A DNA stretch of 64,000 bases from NCBI RefSeq assembly GCF_011839805.1, contig NZ_VWPY01000006.1, positions 1-64,000 of the forward strand, written 5' to 3'. The stretch is from Kineococcus rubinsiae (lineage in GTDB: Bacteria > Actinomycetota > Actinomycetes > Actinomycetales > Kineococcaceae). A program made the translations under genes and the position numbers. This document shows positions 41,479 to 49,220 of the stretch, in pieces; position 1 is the first letter of the stretch; each line of letters opens with the position of its first letter. Under the pieces are notes generated by a model. The model made no database searches. It was not told where the DNA came from and worked only from the letters and a program-made list of their open reading frames with translations.

Positions 41479-43074
41479 CTAGACGCGGAACTTCGCGGTC
41501 GCGGTGCGCAGCGTCGCGGCCAGCTCCTCGACCTCGGCGACCACGGCGGCGCTCTCGTCGGCGCGGCTGCTGGTGTCGGCCACGGCACCAGAGAGGGTGC
41601 CGAGGTCGGCGGCCACGTCGCGGGAGGTGGAGGCGGCCGTGGCGATGCGGCGGTTCATCTCGTCGCTCGTCGCGCTCTGCTCCTCGGCGGCGGCGGCGAT
41701 CGTGCCCTGGTACTCCGTCATGCGGGCGACGATCTCGCTGATGTCGGCGATGGCCGCGCCGGCGCCGTGGCTGTCGGCCTGCAGGACGGTGACCGTGCGG
41801 GTGATGTTCTCGGTGGCCGCGGCCGTCTCCTGCGCGAGCGCCTTGACCTCGGCGGCGACGACGGCGAAGCCCTTGCCCATCTCCCCGGCCCGCGCGGCCT
41901 CGATGGTCGCGTTCAGCGCCAGCAGGTTCGTCTGCGCGGCGATGGAGGCGATGACCCCGACGACGTCGCCGATCTCGCGGCTGGACGCGGACAGCTGCTG
42001 CATGGTCGCGGACGTGGCCCCGGCGACCTGCACGGCCTCGTCGGCGACGGTGGCCGACGTGGTCGCGCTGCGGGAGATCTCGGCGATGGCGGCGGCCATC
42101 TGCTCGCTGGAGGTGGCCAGCGACGCGACGGCGCCCGAGACGACGCCGGCGCCGTGCGTCGCCGAGGCCGACAGCCCGTCCGAGAGGGAGGCCGCGGAGG
42201 CGATGCCGGTCGACGACGTGCGCAGCCGCACGGTGGCGCCGCCGAGCTGGTCGGCGGCGGTGGTGATGTCGCGGACGAGGGTGCTCAGCGCGGCGCCGGC
42301 CTGGTCGAGGGCGGTGCCCATCCGGCCGACCTCGTCGGTGGTGTCGAGCCCGGCGCTGACCGTGAGGTCGCCCGCGGCGAACCCGGTCAGCGCGGCCGAG
42401 ACCCGCCCCAGCGGGCGGGTGACGCTGCGCGAGACCAGGCGGGCCAGGACGAGGACCGCGAGCGCGGCGGCGAGGCCGGCGACCGCGATGAGCCGCAGGC
42501 CGTGGTCGCGGGCGCGGGTGACGGCGGTCTGCTGCTCGGTGGCCTGCGCCTGCACGGCGTCGGCGACCGGCGGCAGCAGGTCCTCGACGGTGGTGAAGCG
42601 CTGCAGGAAGGCGGGGTACTGCGCGAGCGCGGCGGCGGGGTCGGCACCGCTGAGGGCGGCGAGGCGCTGCCCGTCGCCGACGTAGTCGGCCACGGCCGGG
42701 GCGGCCTCCCGGCTCGCCGCCTCGACGGCCGGGCCGAGGTCGGCCGCGGACACCTCCGCGAGCCGCCCGGTGATGGCGTCCGCGGCGTCGGCGACCCCCG
42801 CGACGGCCTCGTCGTGCGCCGGGCCGGTGGGGAAGAGCAGGGACTGCAGGATCGCTCCGCGCAGCGCGTCGTGCGCCATGTCCGCCTCCAGCGTCGCGCG
42901 GACGGCGACGCTCGAGCGGTTGAGCTCGCGCGTGGCGGTGTCGGCCGTGCGCAGCGACGTCGCGCCCACGCCGGCGAGCACGGCGAGCCCGACGAGCGCG
43001 GTCGCCGAGGACACGGCGAGCTTGCGCCCGAGGGGGAGGTCCGCCCACCGGCGGGGTGGTGCGGTTGTTCCCAT
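41479..43074 (-). CDS. Methyl-accepting chemotaxis protein
   Basis: 531 residues. TM1 lies at about 20-42, an extracytoplasmic helical sensor of about 145 residues follows, TM2 is at about 190-212, then a HAMP domain (about 213-266) and a long helical signalling domain. The hairpin tip [20 protein letters not shown] (20 residues) and the following GKGFAVVA block are the receptor signature that docks CheA and CheW. There is no C-terminal CheR-binding pentapeptide. It is the only chemoreceptor in the window and stands apart from the che operons. Confidence 0.93.
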
Positions 43075-43185
43075 GCCTGATCATCGGCACGCCGGGCCGC
43101 CGGCTGTACGGGTGGGCGCGTCCCCGGGGGTCCGCGGCGGGGCCGGCGTCGGCTCCACCCACCCCGGGCGGCCGCCGAGGGGCCG

Positions 43186-43203
43186 AGAAGATCTAGAAGA
43201 TTC
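43186..43203 (+). promoter_or_regulatory. AGAAGATCT / AGAAGATTC direct repeat upstream of the signal peptidase operon
   Basis: Two 9-mers sharing AGAAGAT sit head to tail 80-97 bases before the GTG at 43283. This AT-rich spot stands out in a GC-rich intergenic region of 208 bases. It could be a regulator site; no promoter hexamers are certain. Confidence 0.35.
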
Positions 43204-43282
43204 GTGGAACCGGGGCTCAAGCTCCCGGCCCGGGAGCCGATCACCCCCTGGAAGAGGTCCGCCGTCGGGAAGGAGTGAGGTC

Positions 43283-43981
43283 GTGGTCACCAGCAGCACA
43301 CGTGCCGTGGACCCCCACCGGGGAAGGGGGAGCAGCACGAGCCGGCGCCGCTCCCTGAGGGGCCTGGTCTCCAGCCTGGGCCTGCTCCTGGCCGCCGGCG
43401 TCCTGGTGGCCCACTTCAGCGTGGGCCTCACCGTGCGGACCGTCCTCAGCGGCAGCATGAGCCCCGCCATCGAGGCGGGCGACCGGGTCCTCACCCTGAA
43501 CACCGAACCGCAGCGCATCCACCGCGGTGAGGTGGTGCTCGTCAACACCCCCGACATGACGGCCCCCCTCGCCCACCGGGTCCACGACGTGCGGATGATC
43601 GCCGACGCCGTGTCCGTGCGGACGAAGGGCGACGCCAACGCCAGCCCCGACGAGTGGACGAACCTGCTGCCGGGTGCGGAGGTGCCCGTGGTGGTGGCGG
43701 TGCTCCCGGCCGCGGTCCCCGGCATCCCGAGCACCTGGGGGAGCGGCCCCAAGGTGCTGCTCGTCCTCCTGCTGGGTCTCGGCGTGACCGCGACCATGGT
43801 CGTCCCGCAGTGGCGGCGACGGCCCTGCGACTGCGACGAGTGCACCGCTCCCGCCGCGTCCCCGTGCCCCTCGTGCGGCGACACCGCCGCGCCGCAGGGC
43901 CGGCTGGTCGGCGCGACGAGCGCCCCCGACAGCTCCCCCCACGACACCCCCACCGCGACGAAGGACGAGGTCACACGATGA
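43283..43981 (+). CDS. SipW-type signal peptidase I with Cys-rich tail
   Basis: 232 residues from GTG 43283 (AAGGAG upstream). TM1 at about 28-52 is followed by the serine motif SGSMSPAIEAGD (about 57-68). LAHRVHD carries the His that replaces Lys in ER-type/SipW peptidases, and RTKGDAN supplies the third box. TM2 lies at about 153-172. The cytoplasmic end has six Cys in CDCDEC and CPSC pairs, which SipW enzymes normally lack. It would release the signal peptide of the next gene product. The end overlaps the next start as ATGA. Confidence 0.87.
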   Translation: MVTSSTRAVDPHRGRGSSTSRRRSLRGLVSSLGLLLAAGVLVAHFSVGLTVRTVLSGSMSPAIEAGDRVLTLNTEPQRIHRGEVVLVNTPDMTAPLAHRVHDVRMIADAVSVRTKGDANASPDEWTNLLPGAEVPVVVAVLPAAVPGIPSTWGSGPKVLLVLLLGLGVTATMVVPQWRRRPCDCDECTAPAASPCPSCGDTAAPQGRLVGATSAPDSSPHDTPTATKDEVTR

Positions 43982-44694
43982 GCGCCGCCGAGCACACCCG
44001 GGCCACGATCCACGCCGTCGGTCGCGGCGCCCGCCGCCACGGCGCGCTCGTCGGTCACGGCGCCGGTCACAGCGCCTGGCAGATCGCCGGCATCGCCGCG
44101 ACCGTCGCGGCCGGGGTCGCCGTGACCTCCGGCGGCGTCTACGCCGCCCTGACCGCCGACGCGTACAACGCCACCGGGCAGGCCGTCACCAGCGGCACCT
44201 TGAAGCTCACCATGACCCAGAACGGCGTCGGGTTCACCTCCCCGATCGCGGACCTGGCGCCCGGCGACACCGTCTACCGCTACGTCACCCTGCAGAACGG
44301 CGGGTCCCTCGCCGGGCAGGGCTTGACGCTGTCCGTCACCGACTCCACCGCCACCCTGCTGACCACCGACACGTCCAAGGCCCTGCAGGTGGCGATCGCC
44401 GAGTGCCCCGTCGCCTGGGTGCCGGGCACCGGGGTCTGCACCGGGGGGAGCACGTCCGTCCTCAGCGCCACGTCCGTCCCGTCGCTGACCGCGGCCTCCC
44501 CCACGAGCATCGCGGCGTCCGCCTTCGCGCCGACCGCCGTGCGCTACTACCGGGTGGCCACGAGCCTGCCCACGACCATCGTCGAGACGACGCTGAACGG
44601 CGCCCCGCTCACGGGGTCCATCCAGGGCCTCGCCGCCAACCTGACGTACCGGTTCTCCATGACCCAGCGGGCCGGGACCACCACCGGCGCCTGA
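43978..44694 (+). CDS. TasA/CalY-like secreted protein, probable SipW substrate
   Basis: 238 residues. A long N-terminal region precedes a hydrophobic signal segment (about 34-56) ending GGVYAALTADA, the SipW-type cleavage context. The mature part is a Thr/Ser/Val-rich beta protein with GTLKLTMTQNG and LAPGDTVYRYVTLQNGGSL, as in TasA/camelysin-like fibre proteins. Cys pair in CPVAWVPGTGVCTGG. The start is coupled to the signal peptidase gene by ATGA. It may form surface fibres, inferred from family resemblance and gene pairing. Confidence 0.8.
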   Translation: MSAAEHTRATIHAVGRGARRHGALVGHGAGHSAWQIAGIAATVAAGVAVTSGGVYAALTADAYNATGQAVTSGTLKLTMTQNGVGFTSPIADLAPGDTVYRYVTLQNGGSLAGQGLTLSVTDSTATLLTTDTSKALQVAIAECPVAWVPGTGVCTGGSTSVLSATSVPSLTAASPTSIAASAFAPTAVRYYRVATSLPTTIVETTLNGAPLTGSIQGLAANLTYRFSMTQRAGTTTGA

Positions 44695-44727
44695 TCAGGC
44701 TGCGAGGTCCACCGGGGAGGGGGAGAG

Positions 44728-45246
44728 ATGGGGACGGGCCGCCGGTGCTCGACCGGCCTGCGCCTCGTCGCTGCCCTGGCCGCGATCCTGCTGTGGTCGG
44801 CCCCCTCCGCCCGCGCGGAGGTGACGGCGGCCGCCGAGTCCGTCCCCGTCGCGGTGACGTCGGCGTCGTGGGGGGTCGTGATGTCCACCGCGGCCCAGGG
44901 GCCCTACACCGCGGGAACCACCGCCGCCGTCTCCGGCGCGCTCCTCGCCACCCGCTACGTCACCGTCGCGAGCACGGGGAGCAGGTCACCGGGGACGGTC
45001 ACGTACCTCTACTCCGGGGACGCCCTCGCCCTCGGCGCCTCCCTGTGCCCGACACCGTGGACGGCCCTCGCCACCTGCGCCGGTGGCCAGGACACGACCG
45101 TGCCTCTCAACCAGTCGGTGAGCGGGGCGGGCATGGTCCCGCCGGGCCGGGGTGTGCTCTACATGAAGCTGAACTTCCTCGCCGGCAGCGCCGGGACGCT
45201 GGAGGCCCTGGCGACGAAACCGGTTACTCGCGTGACGACCACCTAG
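44728..45246 (+). CDS. Secreted protein related to the upstream TasA-like protein
   Basis: 172 residues from ATG 44728 with GGGGAGGGGGAG upstream. A classical signal peptide ends PSARA (about residue 30). The mature part is beta-rich, with CPTPWTALATCAGGQ, which matches the Cys-Pro-x-x-Trp...Cys-x-Gly-Gly pattern of the previous protein. I infer a related fold, perhaps a minor fibre subunit or anchor. Third gene of the signal peptidase operon, ended by a strong terminator. Confidence 0.75.
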   Translation: MGTGRRCSTGLRLVAALAAILLWSAPSARAEVTAAAESVPVAVTSASWGVVMSTAAQGPYTAGTTAAVSGALLATRYVTVASTGSRSPGTVTYLYSGDALALGASLCPTPWTALATCAGGQDTTVPLNQSVSGAGMVPPGRGVLYMKLNFLAGSAGTLEALATKPVTRVTTT

Positions 45247-45266
45247 TGCGCCACCGCGGACGACGA

Positions 45267-45296
45267 AGCCGCGCCGGGGAACTCCCCGGCGCGGCT
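45267..45296. terminator. Perfect hairpin between the SipW operon and alcohol dehydrogenase
   Basis: A perfect 14-bp stem (AGCCGCGCCGGGGA and complement) with a 2-base apex lies between convergent genes ending at 45246 and 45317. Likely bidirectional. Confidence 0.85.
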
Positions 45297-45316
45297 CTGT
45301 CGTGCAGGGCTCTGGA

Positions 45317-46360
45317 TCAGCCCAGGGTGGAGGTGTCGATCACGAAGCGGTAGCGCACGTCGGAGGCGACGACGCGCTCGTAGGCCTCGTTGATCTGGTC
45401 GGCCGAGATGACCTCGATCTCGGCGCCCAGGCCGTGCTCGGCGCAGAAGTCCAGCATCTGCTGGGTCTCGGCGATGCCGCCGATCATGGAACCCGCGAGG
45501 CTGCGGCGGTTCGGGATCAGCGAGAACGCCGCGACGGTCATCGGCTTCTCGGGCGCGCCGACCTCGACGAGGGTGCCGTTGACGGCCAGCAGGCCGAGGT
45601 AGGCGTCCAGGTCGATGTTCGCCGAGACCGTGTTGACGATCAGGTCGAAGGAGCCGGCGAGCTGCTGGAACACGTCCGGGTCGCTCGTCGCGTAGTAGTG
45701 GTCCGCGCCGAGGCGCAGGCCGTCCTCCTGCTTCTTCAGCGACTGCGACAGCACGGTGACCTCGGCCCCCATGGCGTGGGCGATCTTGACGCCCATGTGG
45801 CCGAGCCCGCCGAGGCCGACGATGGCGACGCGCTTGCCGGGGCCTGCGCCCCAGTGGTTCAGCGGGGAGAACAGCGTGACGCCCGCGCAGAGCAGCGGGG
45901 CTGCGACGTCGAGGCCCAGGGCCTCGGGGATGCGCAGGACGAAGTCCTCGGTCACGACGACGTGGGTGGAGTAGCCGCCCTGCGTGGGCTGGCCGTCCTT
46001 GCCGACGGCGTTGTAGGTGCCGATGTTGCCCTTGAGGCAGTACTGCTCCTCGCCCTGCTGGCAGTTCGCGCACTCACCGCACGAGTCGACCATGCAGCCG
46101 ACGCCGACGTGGTCGCCCACGGCGTGCTTGGTGACCTCGGAACCGACCTCGGCGACGACGCCGGCGATCTCGTGGCCCGGGACGACGGGGTAGTTCGGCA
46201 GGCCCCACTCACCGCGCGCGGTGTGGATGTCGGAGTGGCAGATGCCCGCGAACTTGATGTCGATGAGGACGTCGTGCGGGCCGAGGTCACGGCGCTCGAC
46301 GGTCATCGGGGCGAGCGGCTCGGTGGCGGACGTGGCGCCGTAGGCGTTCACGGTGAGCAT
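45317..46360 (-). CDS. Zinc-dependent alcohol dehydrogenase (cinnamyl/AdhC-like)
   Basis: 347 residues from ATG 46360. The catalytic zinc ligands Cys41 (GICHSD) and His63-Glu64 (PGHEIAG) are present. Structural zinc cysteines occupy about 95-113 (CGECANC and nearby Cys), and the Rossmann motif GLGGLGHMG follows. The form resembles NADP-dependent YahK/cinnamyl alcohol dehydrogenases acting on aldehydes. Stand-alone gene, divergent from the RsbW-like gene at 46561. Confidence 0.92.
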
Positions 46361-46560
46361 GCGGAGGAGCTCCTCGGTGCTGGGGGATGCGGTGTCGGGA
46401 CGGGGGTCCCGGGTGTTCGACGTTCGGTAGCGGCAGGGGGAGGAGGGCGCCGTCGACCGTCTCCCGCTGCCCTGACGGTAACCCGCCGGAGGGGGTGCCG
46501 CAGTACGGGGCACCGCGGTTCAGAGGGCGGGGGGCCGTCCCAGGGGCCACAGTGGGACTC

Positions 46561-46941
46561 ATGTGCGACGACACCCCGTTCGTGGAGGTACGCCTGCCGG
46601 CGGACCTCTCGGCGGCGCGGCACGCACGGTCGTTCCTGCGTCGTTCCCTGTGCGTGCACCAGTCCCGGGTCATGGACCGCGCCCTCCTGCTGTTCTCGGA
46701 GATGGCCGTCAACGCCGTCGAGCACGGGGCTCCGCCCGTCACCGCGGCCCTGGACTGCGAGGGCGTCGGGGGCGTCCGGCTGGCCGTGCACGACGGCAGC
46801 CCGGCGCAGCCCGTCCTGCACGAGGTCGGCCCGGAGGCCGAGTCCGGCCGCGGCGTGAACCTGCTGCAGGTGCTCAGCGAGGACTGGGGCGTCGACGTGG
46901 ACCCGCGCGGCAAGACCGTCTGGTGCGTGCTGCGGCCCTGA
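46561..46941 (+). CDS. RsbW-like ATP-binding anti-sigma factor kinase
   Basis: 126 residues, a single HATPase_c_2 domain. The N-box FSEMAVNAVEHGAPP (about 41-55) has the Glu and Asn needed for ATP-Mg binding. VHDGSPAQP forms the G1 region and GRGVNLLQVLSEDWGV the G2 region. These kinases bind a sigma factor and phosphorylate an anti-anti-sigma protein. It converges tail to tail on the LOV-PP2C phosphatase gene, its likely functional opponent; the two stops are only 29 bases apart. Confidence 0.85.
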   Translation: MCDDTPFVEVRLPADLSAARHARSFLRRSLCVHQSRVMDRALLLFSEMAVNAVEHGAPPVTAALDCEGVGGVRLAVHDGSPAQPVLHEVGPEAESGRGVNLLQVLSEDWGVDVDPRGKTVWCVLRP

Positions 46942-46970
46942 CCGTCGGGCCGTGACGCTCGGCTGACGGA

Positions 46971-49106
46971 CTAGGCGGCGGGGGTCTCGAGCACCCGCAC
47001 CACGACGACCGCCACGTCGTCGTCGCTGCCGTCGGGCAGCATTCGCGCGATCAGCTCGTCGCACAGCTCGTCGAGGGGCCGGTCGGCCAGGTCGGCGACG
47101 GCGGCGTGCAGCTCGTCCAGCCGCTCGCCCATGGTCCGGTCGCGGCGTTCGACGAGGCCGTCGGTGTAGAGCAGGACGATCGAGCCCGGCAGCAGGTCCG
47201 CCTCGTGCTGGTGGCGGCGCTGGTCCGGCCCCAGGCCGACGACGATCCCGGTGCCGCTGAGCTGGGTCACCTCGCCGTCCGGGTGCACGAGGACGGCGGG
47301 CAGGTGGCCCGCGACGCACCACCGCGCCCGGCGCACGCCGCCCTCGCCCTCGGAGATCTGCAGGACGATCGCCGTGGCCAGGGTCGTCATGCCCAGGCCG
47401 TGCAGGACGGTGTCGAGGCGGCCCACGACCTCGGCGGGCTGGGCCCCGCGGTCGAAGGCGATGCCCCGCACCAGGGTCCGCAGCTGCCCCATCGCGGCGG
47501 CCGCGGACACGTCGTGGCCCATGACGTCGCCGATCACCACGGTGGTGCAGCCGTCGGGCTGGACGAAGGCGTCGTACCAGTCGCCGCCGACCTGCGCGGC
47601 CTCCGCGGCCGGGTAGTAGCGGGTCGCCACGGCCAGGCCCTCGGAGTGCTGGGGCGGGGAGAGGAGGCTGCGCTGCAGCACTTCCGACGTCTTGCGCTGC
47701 TGCGCGTACAGCCGGGCGTTCTCCAGCGCCAGACCGGCCCGGTAGCCGAGGTCGACGGCCGTGCTGAGGTCGTCCTCGTCGAAGGGAGGCCGGCCGGAGC
47801 CGCTGAACATCGTGAGGCAGCCGGTGATCGCGCCGCGGGCGCGCAGCGGGACGACGAGGACGCTGCCCAGGCCCAGCCGTTCGAGCAGCTCGGTGAACTC
47901 GCCCTCGGCGGCGCCGTCGTGCAGCTCGTCGGCCCCGACGATCCGGCGCAGCGTCGGGCCGAGCTCGCCCCGCAGGACCCGCGAGGACACCGAGGACGGC
48001 AGCAGGCCCGTCGCGAGCAGCTCCTCCAGGCGGGCGGCGTCGGCGGCGCGGGCCTCGTCGGTGTGCGTGGCGCTGACGTGCTGGATGCGCCCGGCGGCGT
48101 CCAGCACGCTCGCGAAGGCCCACAGCGCGAAGTCCGGCACGACCAGCGACGGCAGCACGTGCAGCGCCTCGTCCGGGTCGAGCAGGGTGACGAGGCCGTC
48201 GGTGACCCGGGACAGGAACTCGAGGCGGCCGCGCGCCGAGCGGGCCTCGGCCAGGGCGGCGTCGCGCTCGCTCTCGGCGTGGATGCGCGCCGTGACGTCG
48301 TACTGCACCCCGACGTGGTGGGTCACGGTGCCCGTCGCGTCGCGGACGGGGGAGATGACCACCTCGTTCCAGAAGGCGGTGCCGTCCTTGCGGTAGTTCA
48401 GGAGCAGCTCGGTGATGTTGTCGCCCTTGGCGAGCGCGGTCCGGATCCGGTCCACGGACGCGCGGTCGGTGTCCTCGCCCTGCAGGAACCGGCAGTTGCG
48501 CCCCAGGACCTCCTTGCCGTAGCCCGTGACGCGCTCGAAGGCGGGGTTCACCCAGACGAGCGGGTTGTCGGGCTGGCTCGGGTCGGAGATCGTGAACGAG
48601 AGGTCGCTGGCGACGACGGCCCGGCTGCGCAGCTGGGCGGCGGACTCCTGCGCCTCCGCGACGGCCACCTGCTCCCGCATGGGCAGGAGCACGACCAGGC
48701 TCAGGTCCGTGAGGCCCTCGGCGGCCGCGTCGGCGAGGGGGAGGCCGACGACCCACAGCGGCTCGCGGGCCCCGCTGAGGTCCGTGCCGCGCAGCGCCGT
48801 GACGCGCTCGCCCTGGATCGGCTCACCGGCGGCGACGCGGGACAGCGGGCTCGAGGCCTGCCCCTGGTCGGGGCGGTCCAGCCGCGACCCGTCCTCGGCC
48901 TGCAGGCCGGCGGCGCGCGACCACTCCTCGAGACCGCAGGGCAGCTTCTGCCCGGGGGCCAGCTGCTCGGCGACCGGGTTCGCGACCAGGACCGTGGCGT
49001 CGGCGTTGCGCACCAGCAGGACGGCGCCGGGGCGGCCGTGCATCACGCTGGGCAGGAGCTGCGGTGCAGGACCATCCACGTAGGTGGTCGCCGGGCCGTC
49101 GGTCAT
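46971..49106 (-). CDS. LOV-GAF-PP2C (SpoIIE) phosphatase, putative blue-light stress sensor
   Basis: 711 residues from ATG 49106. A PAS-like region (about 20-130) precedes a LOV domain at about 168-275. Its GRNCRFLQG motif has Cys205, the residue that forms the flavin adduct under blue light, and NYRKDGTAFWNE follows. A GAF domain spans about 305-475. The SpoIIE-type PP2C domain spans about 490-705, with GGDWYDAF, IGDVMGHDVSAAAAMG, YTDGLVE and DDVAVVVV. It likely dephosphorylates an anti-anti-sigma factor in response to light. Its gene converges on the RsbW-like kinase gene. Confidence 0.92.
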   Translation of the reverse strand: MTDGPATTYVDGPAPQLLPSVMHGRPGAVLLVRNADATVLVANPVAEQLAPGQKLPCGLEEWSRAAGLQAEDGSRLDRPDQGQASSPLSRVAAGEPIQGERVTALRGTDLSGAREPLWVVGLPLADAAAEGLTDLSLVVLLPMREQVAVAEAQESAAQLRSRAVVASDLSFTISDPSQPDNPLVWVNPAFERVTGYGKEVLGRNCRFLQGEDTDRASVDRIRTALAKGDNITELLLNYRKDGTAFWNEVVISPVRDATGTVTHHVGVQYDVTARIHAESERDAALAEARSARGRLEFLSRVTDGLVTLLDPDEALHVLPSLVVPDFALWAFASVLDAAGRIQHVSATHTDEARAADAARLEELLATGLLPSSVSSRVLRGELGPTLRRIVGADELHDGAAEGEFTELLERLGLGSVLVVPLRARGAITGCLTMFSGSGRPPFDEDDLSTAVDLGYRAGLALENARLYAQQRKTSEVLQRSLLSPPQHSEGLAVATRYYPAAEAAQVGGDWYDAFVQPDGCTTVVIGDVMGHDVSAAAAMGQLRTLVRGIAFDRGAQPAEVVGRLDTVLHGLGMTTLATAIVLQISEGEGGVRRARWCVAGHLPAVLVHPDGEVTQLSGTGIVVGLGPDQRRHQHEADLLPGSIVLLYTDGLVERRDRTMGERLDELHAAVADLADRPLDELCDELIARMLPDGSDDDVAVVVVRVLETPAA

Positions 49107-49164
49107 TCCGTGGATCCTAGTCGGGAGGGCGGACACCGCAGGGCGTGGCGAGTGTCCGGACGTG

Positions 49165-49203
49165 GACGCGGGGAGCGCCCTCCCAGAGGGCACTCCCCGC
49201 GTC
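49165..49203 (-). terminator. Hairpin terminator after the CWB2 gene
   Basis: An 18-bp stem with one G-U pair and a 3-base loop lies 18 bases past the minus-strand CWB2 stop at 49221. Confidence 0.8.
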
Positions 49204-49220
49204 ACGCTGTGGTCAGGACG

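Follow-up and report, generated by a model that had tools for sequence, protein, structure and literature searches.

A SipW/TasA-like three-gene unit in Kineococcus rubinsiae and other actinobacteria as a candidate sortase-independent surface-fiber operon

Described TasA-type systems and the actinobacterial locus

Fibers of the TasA type have been studied in Bacillus and in some archaea, and SipW/TasA is a known kind of system. In Bacillus subtilis, according to PMC9674648 and PMC10151520, every TasA subunit passes an N-terminal strand on to its neighbor, the first strand comes from TapA, which is already complete, and the resulting filament is non-amyloid and built by donor-strand exchange. 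A job related to that of TapA is done for TasA and CalY by CapP of Bacillus cereus (PMC13082335), and the archaeal bundling pili (AbpA, AbpX) are TasA-related donor-strand fibers as well (as cited in PMC9674648 and PMC11952670). Here we describe a three-gene unit of Kineococcus rubinsiae that we read, with a probability of about 0.58, as a sortase-independent operon for a donor-strand-exchange surface fiber, in which the third protein would be the initiating or anchoring subunit. This third component, and the trio as a unit, appear to be undescribed in the searchable literature: among the papers listed by a search that covered few subscription journals, none was seen to describe a TasA fiber in actinobacteria or an actinobacterial trio.

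The window, that is, the whole stretch of 64,000 nucleotides that was analyzed, carries the unit on its forward strand at 43283-45246. The original prediction of a three-gene operon held; the genes are co-directional and tightly packed and end in a strong hairpin. The gene of an ER-type signal peptidase (43283-43981, 232 aa) begins with GTG, and an AAGGAG ribosome-binding site (43270-43275) lies 7 bases upstream of this start. The ATG of the second gene, which encodes the precursor of a subunit of the TasA/camelysin (CalY) family (43978-44694, 238 aa), overlaps the peptidase stop codon (ATGA), and 33 bases separate its own stop from the start of the gene for a third secreted protein (44728-45246, 172 aa). 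The operon is closed by a 13-pair hairpin without a T run (45267-45296); for 45255-45310 the predicted folding energy is -43.5 kcal/mol (z -5.64), a stability that 0 of 200 shuffles equaled. A pattern scan for a promoter and a terminator at the trio gave no match. In each of the three genes, 94-99% of the third codon positions are G or C. Upstream, on the opposite strand, lies a chemotaxis receptor gene, and downstream a convergent zinc alcohol dehydrogenase gene; we see no functional tie of either to the trio. At 46387-49205, a gene for a HATPase_c_2 (anti-sigma-type) protein on the forward strand adjoins one for a PAS-GAF-SpoIIE phosphatase on the reverse strand, likely a partner-switching pair.

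The tetranucleotide CTAG is uncommon in these GC-rich genomes, with 21 copies in the whole 64-kb window, and is clustered a short way upstream of the trio, where it occurs in the window (43192) and at L006, L007 and L043-L046. Within about 220 bases upstream there is one copy in the window, three in genome G001 and two in G007, and four loci of another family have two per 450 bases. Two copies also occur at L061, which is without the third gene; L058-L060 have none, and none was seen by eye at an Arthrobacter locus described below. This pattern, noticed post hoc, makes the upstream CTAG a possible operator.

The locus resembles tapA-sipW-tasA of B. subtilis in having an ER-type peptidase beside TasA, in the TasA fold and the proline-box positions of the subunit, and in the presence of a further secreted protein whose N terminus looks donor-like. 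It differs in gene order, which in the window is peptidase, TasA-like protein, third protein, and in that neither its peptidase nor its subunit comes near the cut-offs of the Bacillus equivalog models. Moreover, the third protein is by profile comparison a TasA paralog, unlike TapA of B. subtilis; the TapA model (TIGR04087, YqxM_for_SipW) has no match in the genome, and a B. subtilis control matches it. The sipW-tasA / capP / calY region of B. cereus likewise joins a peptidase, TasA-family proteins and an assembly factor; it has two full TasA-family subunits plus CapP (DUF4047), whereas the third protein of the window has no Pfam match (PMC13082335 for B. cereus).

The co-encoded peptidase and the TasA-like subunit

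The peptidase scores 59.4 bits against the NCBIfam model TIGR02228 (cut-off 51.85) and 41.8 bits against the Bacillus SipW equivalog NF046067 (cut-off 190), so that by these models it is SipW-like and not a Bacillus SipW equivalog; against Pfam Peptidase_S26 it reaches 23.4 bits (cut-off 22.9). Searched alone against the PDB, it matches solely SEC11A (two sequences) and SEC11C at E<=1, and its SGSM, HRV and GDxNA motifs fall in register with SEC11A (7P2P). The predicted catalytic residues aligned to SEC11A are Ser58 (43454-43456), His98 (43574-43576) and Asp117, and they are conserved across three genomes. By homology, then, the enzyme is an ER-type (S26B, Ser-His) signal peptidase, as had been proposed. 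Hydrophobic stretches start at residues 33 and 158 and, less marked, at 128, a pattern compatible with two membrane spans. The tail (43826-43876) carries CxCxxC, kept in three genomes of the genus, two of which have an extra CPSC; perhaps this is a metal-binding cytoplasmic tail.

TIGR02228 matches three places in the whole genome, and the window peptidase is the only one above the cut-off. The other two are in tandem, below the cut-off, and bear a KR...GLPGD motif that we read as Ser-Lys; apart from the window peptidase, then, no ER-type enzyme was found in this genome. To this extent the proposal of a dedicated peptidase holds. It may not extend to both secreted proteins: the third has a conventional Ala-x-Ala signal peptide with a hydrophobic segment (44728-44817, predicted cleavage ARA|EV) and therefore need not be a substrate.

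The second protein was correctly described at the outset as TasA/CalY-like. It scores 34.7 bits against Pfam PF12389 (gathering cut-off 22.5) and 21.2 bits against the TasA equivalog NF046066 (cut-off 450), which makes it a relative within the TasA family and not a Bacillus TasA equivalog. PF12389 matches one place in the genome, as does a 26-row profile of the subunit family. This profile retrieves the TasA fiber structure 8AUR (E 1.1e-8) as well as 5OF1 (E 1.6e-8), with both the N- and the C-terminal parts matched; the archaeal AbpX (9RHP) appears at E 0.22, which is not significant. An AlphaFold2 model of the subunit has a pLDDT of 84.1, with mature residues 1-8 below 50. The top four chains in Foldseek are all TasA at probability 1.00 (TMq 0.60 for 5OF2), and VIA gives Z 11.5 for 5OF2 (3.2 A rmsd over 142 residues) and 11.4 for 5OF1, followed by an unrelated row at 7.8 and the fiber form 8AUR at 7.1.

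PF12389 carries the name 'Camelysin metallo-endopeptidase', and a subunit that matches it above the cut-off could on that ground be taken for a camelysin-type metallo-endopeptidase. We consider this hardly credible. The mature chain of 182 residues contains no histidine, and thus no HExxH-type zinc site, for which reason the protease reading was rejected; CalY itself is treated as a matrix fiber protein in PMC13082335.

In TasA, the filament-interface residues F29, P62, F200 and Q232 belong to the proline box (PMC10151520), and they correspond to L58, P95, L197 and Q230 of the subunit, two being identical and two changed from Phe to Leu. In the 26-row alignment the four columns contain, in this order, L/F/W (26 rows), P (25), L/F (26) and Q (20), and they rank among the most conserved of the alignment. 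The PGD motif, part of the proline box, is present in 23 rows, and a Gln lies within the last 12 residues in 21. The conservation of positions identified as a filament interface in PMC10151520 argues against another reading, namely that the locus encodes secreted proteins that do not polymerize, such as a TasA-fold carbohydrate- or envelope-binding protein with a peptidase of its own. So does the retention of the donor segment and of the SipW-type cleavage site. The patchy presence of the trio in the genus would agree with such proteins, as would the many unrelated beta-sandwiches that give middling Z values with the models of both the subunit and the third protein; on balance we regard this reading as improbable.

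Mature TasA starts at residue 28 (PMC10151520), and alignment to it places the end of a SipW-type signal peptide in the subunit (43978-44145) at a predicted VYA|AL cleavage site. The segment that follows (44146-44190) aligns to the donor strand of 8AUR, has low confidence in the monomer model, and is the putative N-terminal donor strand. None of the NCBIfam SipW-substrate models matches the window subunit at E<=1; relatives match TIGR04088 and TIGR04090 below the cut-off only. B. subtilis TasA is a poor substrate of LepB, a Ser-Lys peptidase, with a Trp at P2 and a Phe at P2' implicated (PMC10269814). In the window subunit, P2 is Tyr and P2' is the non-aromatic Leu, so this argument holds for it in part.

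We infer from these homologies that the Sec pathway would secrete the TasA-like subunit and the co-encoded peptidase would cut it at VYA|AL, and that the N-terminal strand freed in this way would insert into the beta-sandwich of the next subunit, giving a TasA-type filament at the cell surface. The original prediction had spoken of amyloid-like matrix fibers built by such systems in Bacillus. Homology points instead to a filament of the donor-strand-exchange kind, as distinct from cross-beta amyloid (PMC9674648 and PMC10151520).

The third secreted protein and its place in a filament

The third protein has no match at E<=1 in Pfam or NCBIfam, and neither seven relatives from other loci nor the G007 copy reach any Pfam cut-off. 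A search of the PDB with its family profile gave no match at E<=5, and BLASTP between the subunit and the third protein gives no useful match. Aligned as profiles by hhalign, the third family and the TasA family match with a probability of 96.4% in one direction (score 62.2) and 97.0% in the other (score 68.9); 200 column shuffles in the first direction average 10.0 (sd 1.7) with a maximum of 16.2, and reversed profiles give 10.5 and 9.7. The suggestion that the two secreted proteins are related is thereby borne out, and at the level of sequence profiles the third protein is a diverged TasA paralog. The Arthrobacter third protein, which stood outside all profiles, matches the third profile at E 2.7e-23 and the TasA profile at E 1.1e-7, the latter within a small set of frames and with a composition-bias correction as large as the score; for this reason, the shuffle-controlled hhalign comparison is the main evidence of homology. 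By eye, the third protein and TasA have in common a segment before the first strand, N-T/G-G after the middle strand, and a Cys...Trp...Cys arrangement.

A TapA-like initiator would combine a donor-like N terminus with a domain that does not accept a strand. The N terminus of the third protein is donor-like over 13 pairs: the segments of subunit and third protein, which include the start of the first strand, reach a summed score of 274, compared with 141.5 +/- 16.5 when shuffled, and 0 of 1000 shuffles reach the sum, the pairs coming from related loci and being not all independent. Pair by pair, at most 4 of 1000 shuffles do as well in G007, G151, one pair of G308 and Arthrobacter, and 21-90 of 1000 in five pairs; the similarity is not significant for the window (278 of 1000), G001 (352), G172 (267) and G188 (642). 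On the acceptor side, PGD is found in 0 of 9 third-protein rows as against 23 of the 26 subunit rows. However, three of the nine have a Gln among their last 12 residues, seemingly one place off, and the other six lack it, so the case for acceptor loss stands on PGD. The fold model of the third protein is weak as well (pLDDT 63.0), and the absence of TasA from its Foldseek and VIA lists therefore says little.

Since the donor end is kept and PGD is lost, the third protein would most likely sit at one end of the filament, as an initiating or anchoring subunit, in the role that TapA has in B. subtilis and CapP in B. cereus. It might also be a second structural subunit or a distal adhesive tip, in the manner of CalY with TasA in B. 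cereus. This would suit a TasA paralog, and sets of paralogs do occur: two operons of G308 (L053, L055) each have two TasA genes and a third gene. Both proteins also end at many loci in a similar tail (TTNS, TTYS, TTGS and similar, TTxS-like), the C terminus is an interface between subunits in TasA fibers (PMC9674648), and the Gln near the tail in three of nine rows fits as well. The loss of PGD from every third-protein row nevertheless argues against acceptance of a strand in the manner of TasA, and we hold a second subunit or tip to be rather unlikely.

A more detailed version of the filament-end reading can be put forward tentatively, as possible yet doubtful: an undescribed, mobile actinobacterial donor-strand fiber whose starter is a cut-down copy of the subunit, with the strand kept and the groove lost, and whose processing is split between the ER-type peptidase for the subunit and housekeeping peptidases for the starter. 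The third protein would perhaps be cut by ordinary Ser-Lys peptidases. The legend of Fig. 9 in PMC13082335 depicts the CapP of B. cereus as a substrate of SipW, which speaks against split processing and makes this part a guess.

Distribution and mobility of the three genes

As the original prediction proposed, the trio was sought in other actinobacteria. Within the genus, the subunit and the third protein occur together in 3 of 11 genomes, its own included (G000, G001, G007), each time with the peptidase, and the other eight have no trio. The subunit is present in 4 of 59 sampled relatives and, across the class, in 23 of 296 genomes, and the third protein in 12 of 394, its own genome being included in each count. 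In ten of these twelve a TasA gene adjoins the third gene; one match lies at a contig edge and one genome is without TasA. A peptidase gene lies near the TasA gene within the fetched stretch at 22 of 28 TasA-selected loci, with none found at the other six; the same peptidase profiles gave 0 matches in a control made of five 8.5-kb pieces of this window only.

The trio is complete at 12 of 31 examined loci (L043-L046, L048, L050, L051, L053, L055, L063, L064 and L101), which span five family groups of the class (f1, f30, f32, f44 and f55), and also in the window and on an Arthrobacter plasmid. The peptidase gene comes first at most of them and last at L046 and L051. Seven of the twelve genomes with a third protein supplied seeds chosen beside TasA genes, and G251, G308 and Arthrobacter were also reached via TasA, so the counts show that TasA loci other than the seeds carry the third gene, not that the third gene always adjoins TasA. 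Reached by the third profile alone were G369, where the gene adjoins TasA and the peptidase and its open frame also matches the TasA profile (E 6.4e-6), G401, whose match starts at a contig edge so that its neighbors cannot be judged, and G430.

Several candidates were set aside. The 8.5 kb examined for G430 (L103, E 6e-4) contain neither a TasA nor a peptidase gene. The third-protein match in G005 (L012) is spurious, with four TAG stops and an opposite strand that reads like a sugar-binding protein. In G050 (L008, L062), the small secreted protein after a TasA-like gene matches neither Pfam nor the third profile, and at L047 two TasA genes precede a gene that is third-like by eye only and was left uncounted, the profiles giving no match. 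In the small genome G308 (f44), each of the two operons combines a peptidase gene and two TasA genes with one for a third-type protein that is enlarged, its open frames being 268 and 286 residues long.

Arthrobacter sp. YA7-1, from tomato rhizosphere, carries the same three genes in the same order as the window, there annotated as signal peptidase I, CalY family protein and hypothetical protein (OIT41_RS20525-RS20535); unlike those of the window, they lie on a conjugative plasmid, pYA7-1b. Its TasA-like protein is 42.4% identical to the window subunit over 76% of the query. The idea of an undescribed actinobacterial system therefore survives for the third protein and for the trio as a unit, and not for the TasA relative, which had already received its CalY annotation there. 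A gene for an Hpt-domain protein (L104:5215-5667) follows the trio on this plasmid.

The trio is apparently mobile. In the relative G002, the stretch 43119-45313, which carries all three genes, is missing as one unit: 41481-43118 and 45314-46950 of the window have their counterparts in L096 at 3718-2081 and 2079-489, so that a single base replaces the stretch and the two flanking genes abut. Between the portions of these genes that align lie about 300 bases in G008 and about 1000 in G005 and G007, and at that scale the trio is not among them. G001 and G007 carry the trio away from their dehydrogenase genes, and in G001 a transposase frame of the IS4/5 type (PF13340, E 1.5e-21) lies beside it. 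In GC content the trio (0.742-0.746) is equal to the window as a whole (0.746), and its composition thus bears no sign of recent foreign origin.

Taken together, we suggest that this three-gene kit very probably builds a TasA-like surface fiber outside the Bacillus group. That the trio lies on a conjugative plasmid in one case and occurs patchily, as a unit, within the genus suggests a transferable surface trait. As the putative starter is recognizable as a paralog of the subunit, the initiation or anchoring of a fiber without sortase would become directly testable with three small proteins. If the more detailed of our readings is true, an independent origin of the starters TapA, CapP and the third protein described here would imply repeated evolution of initiators on a single filament design.
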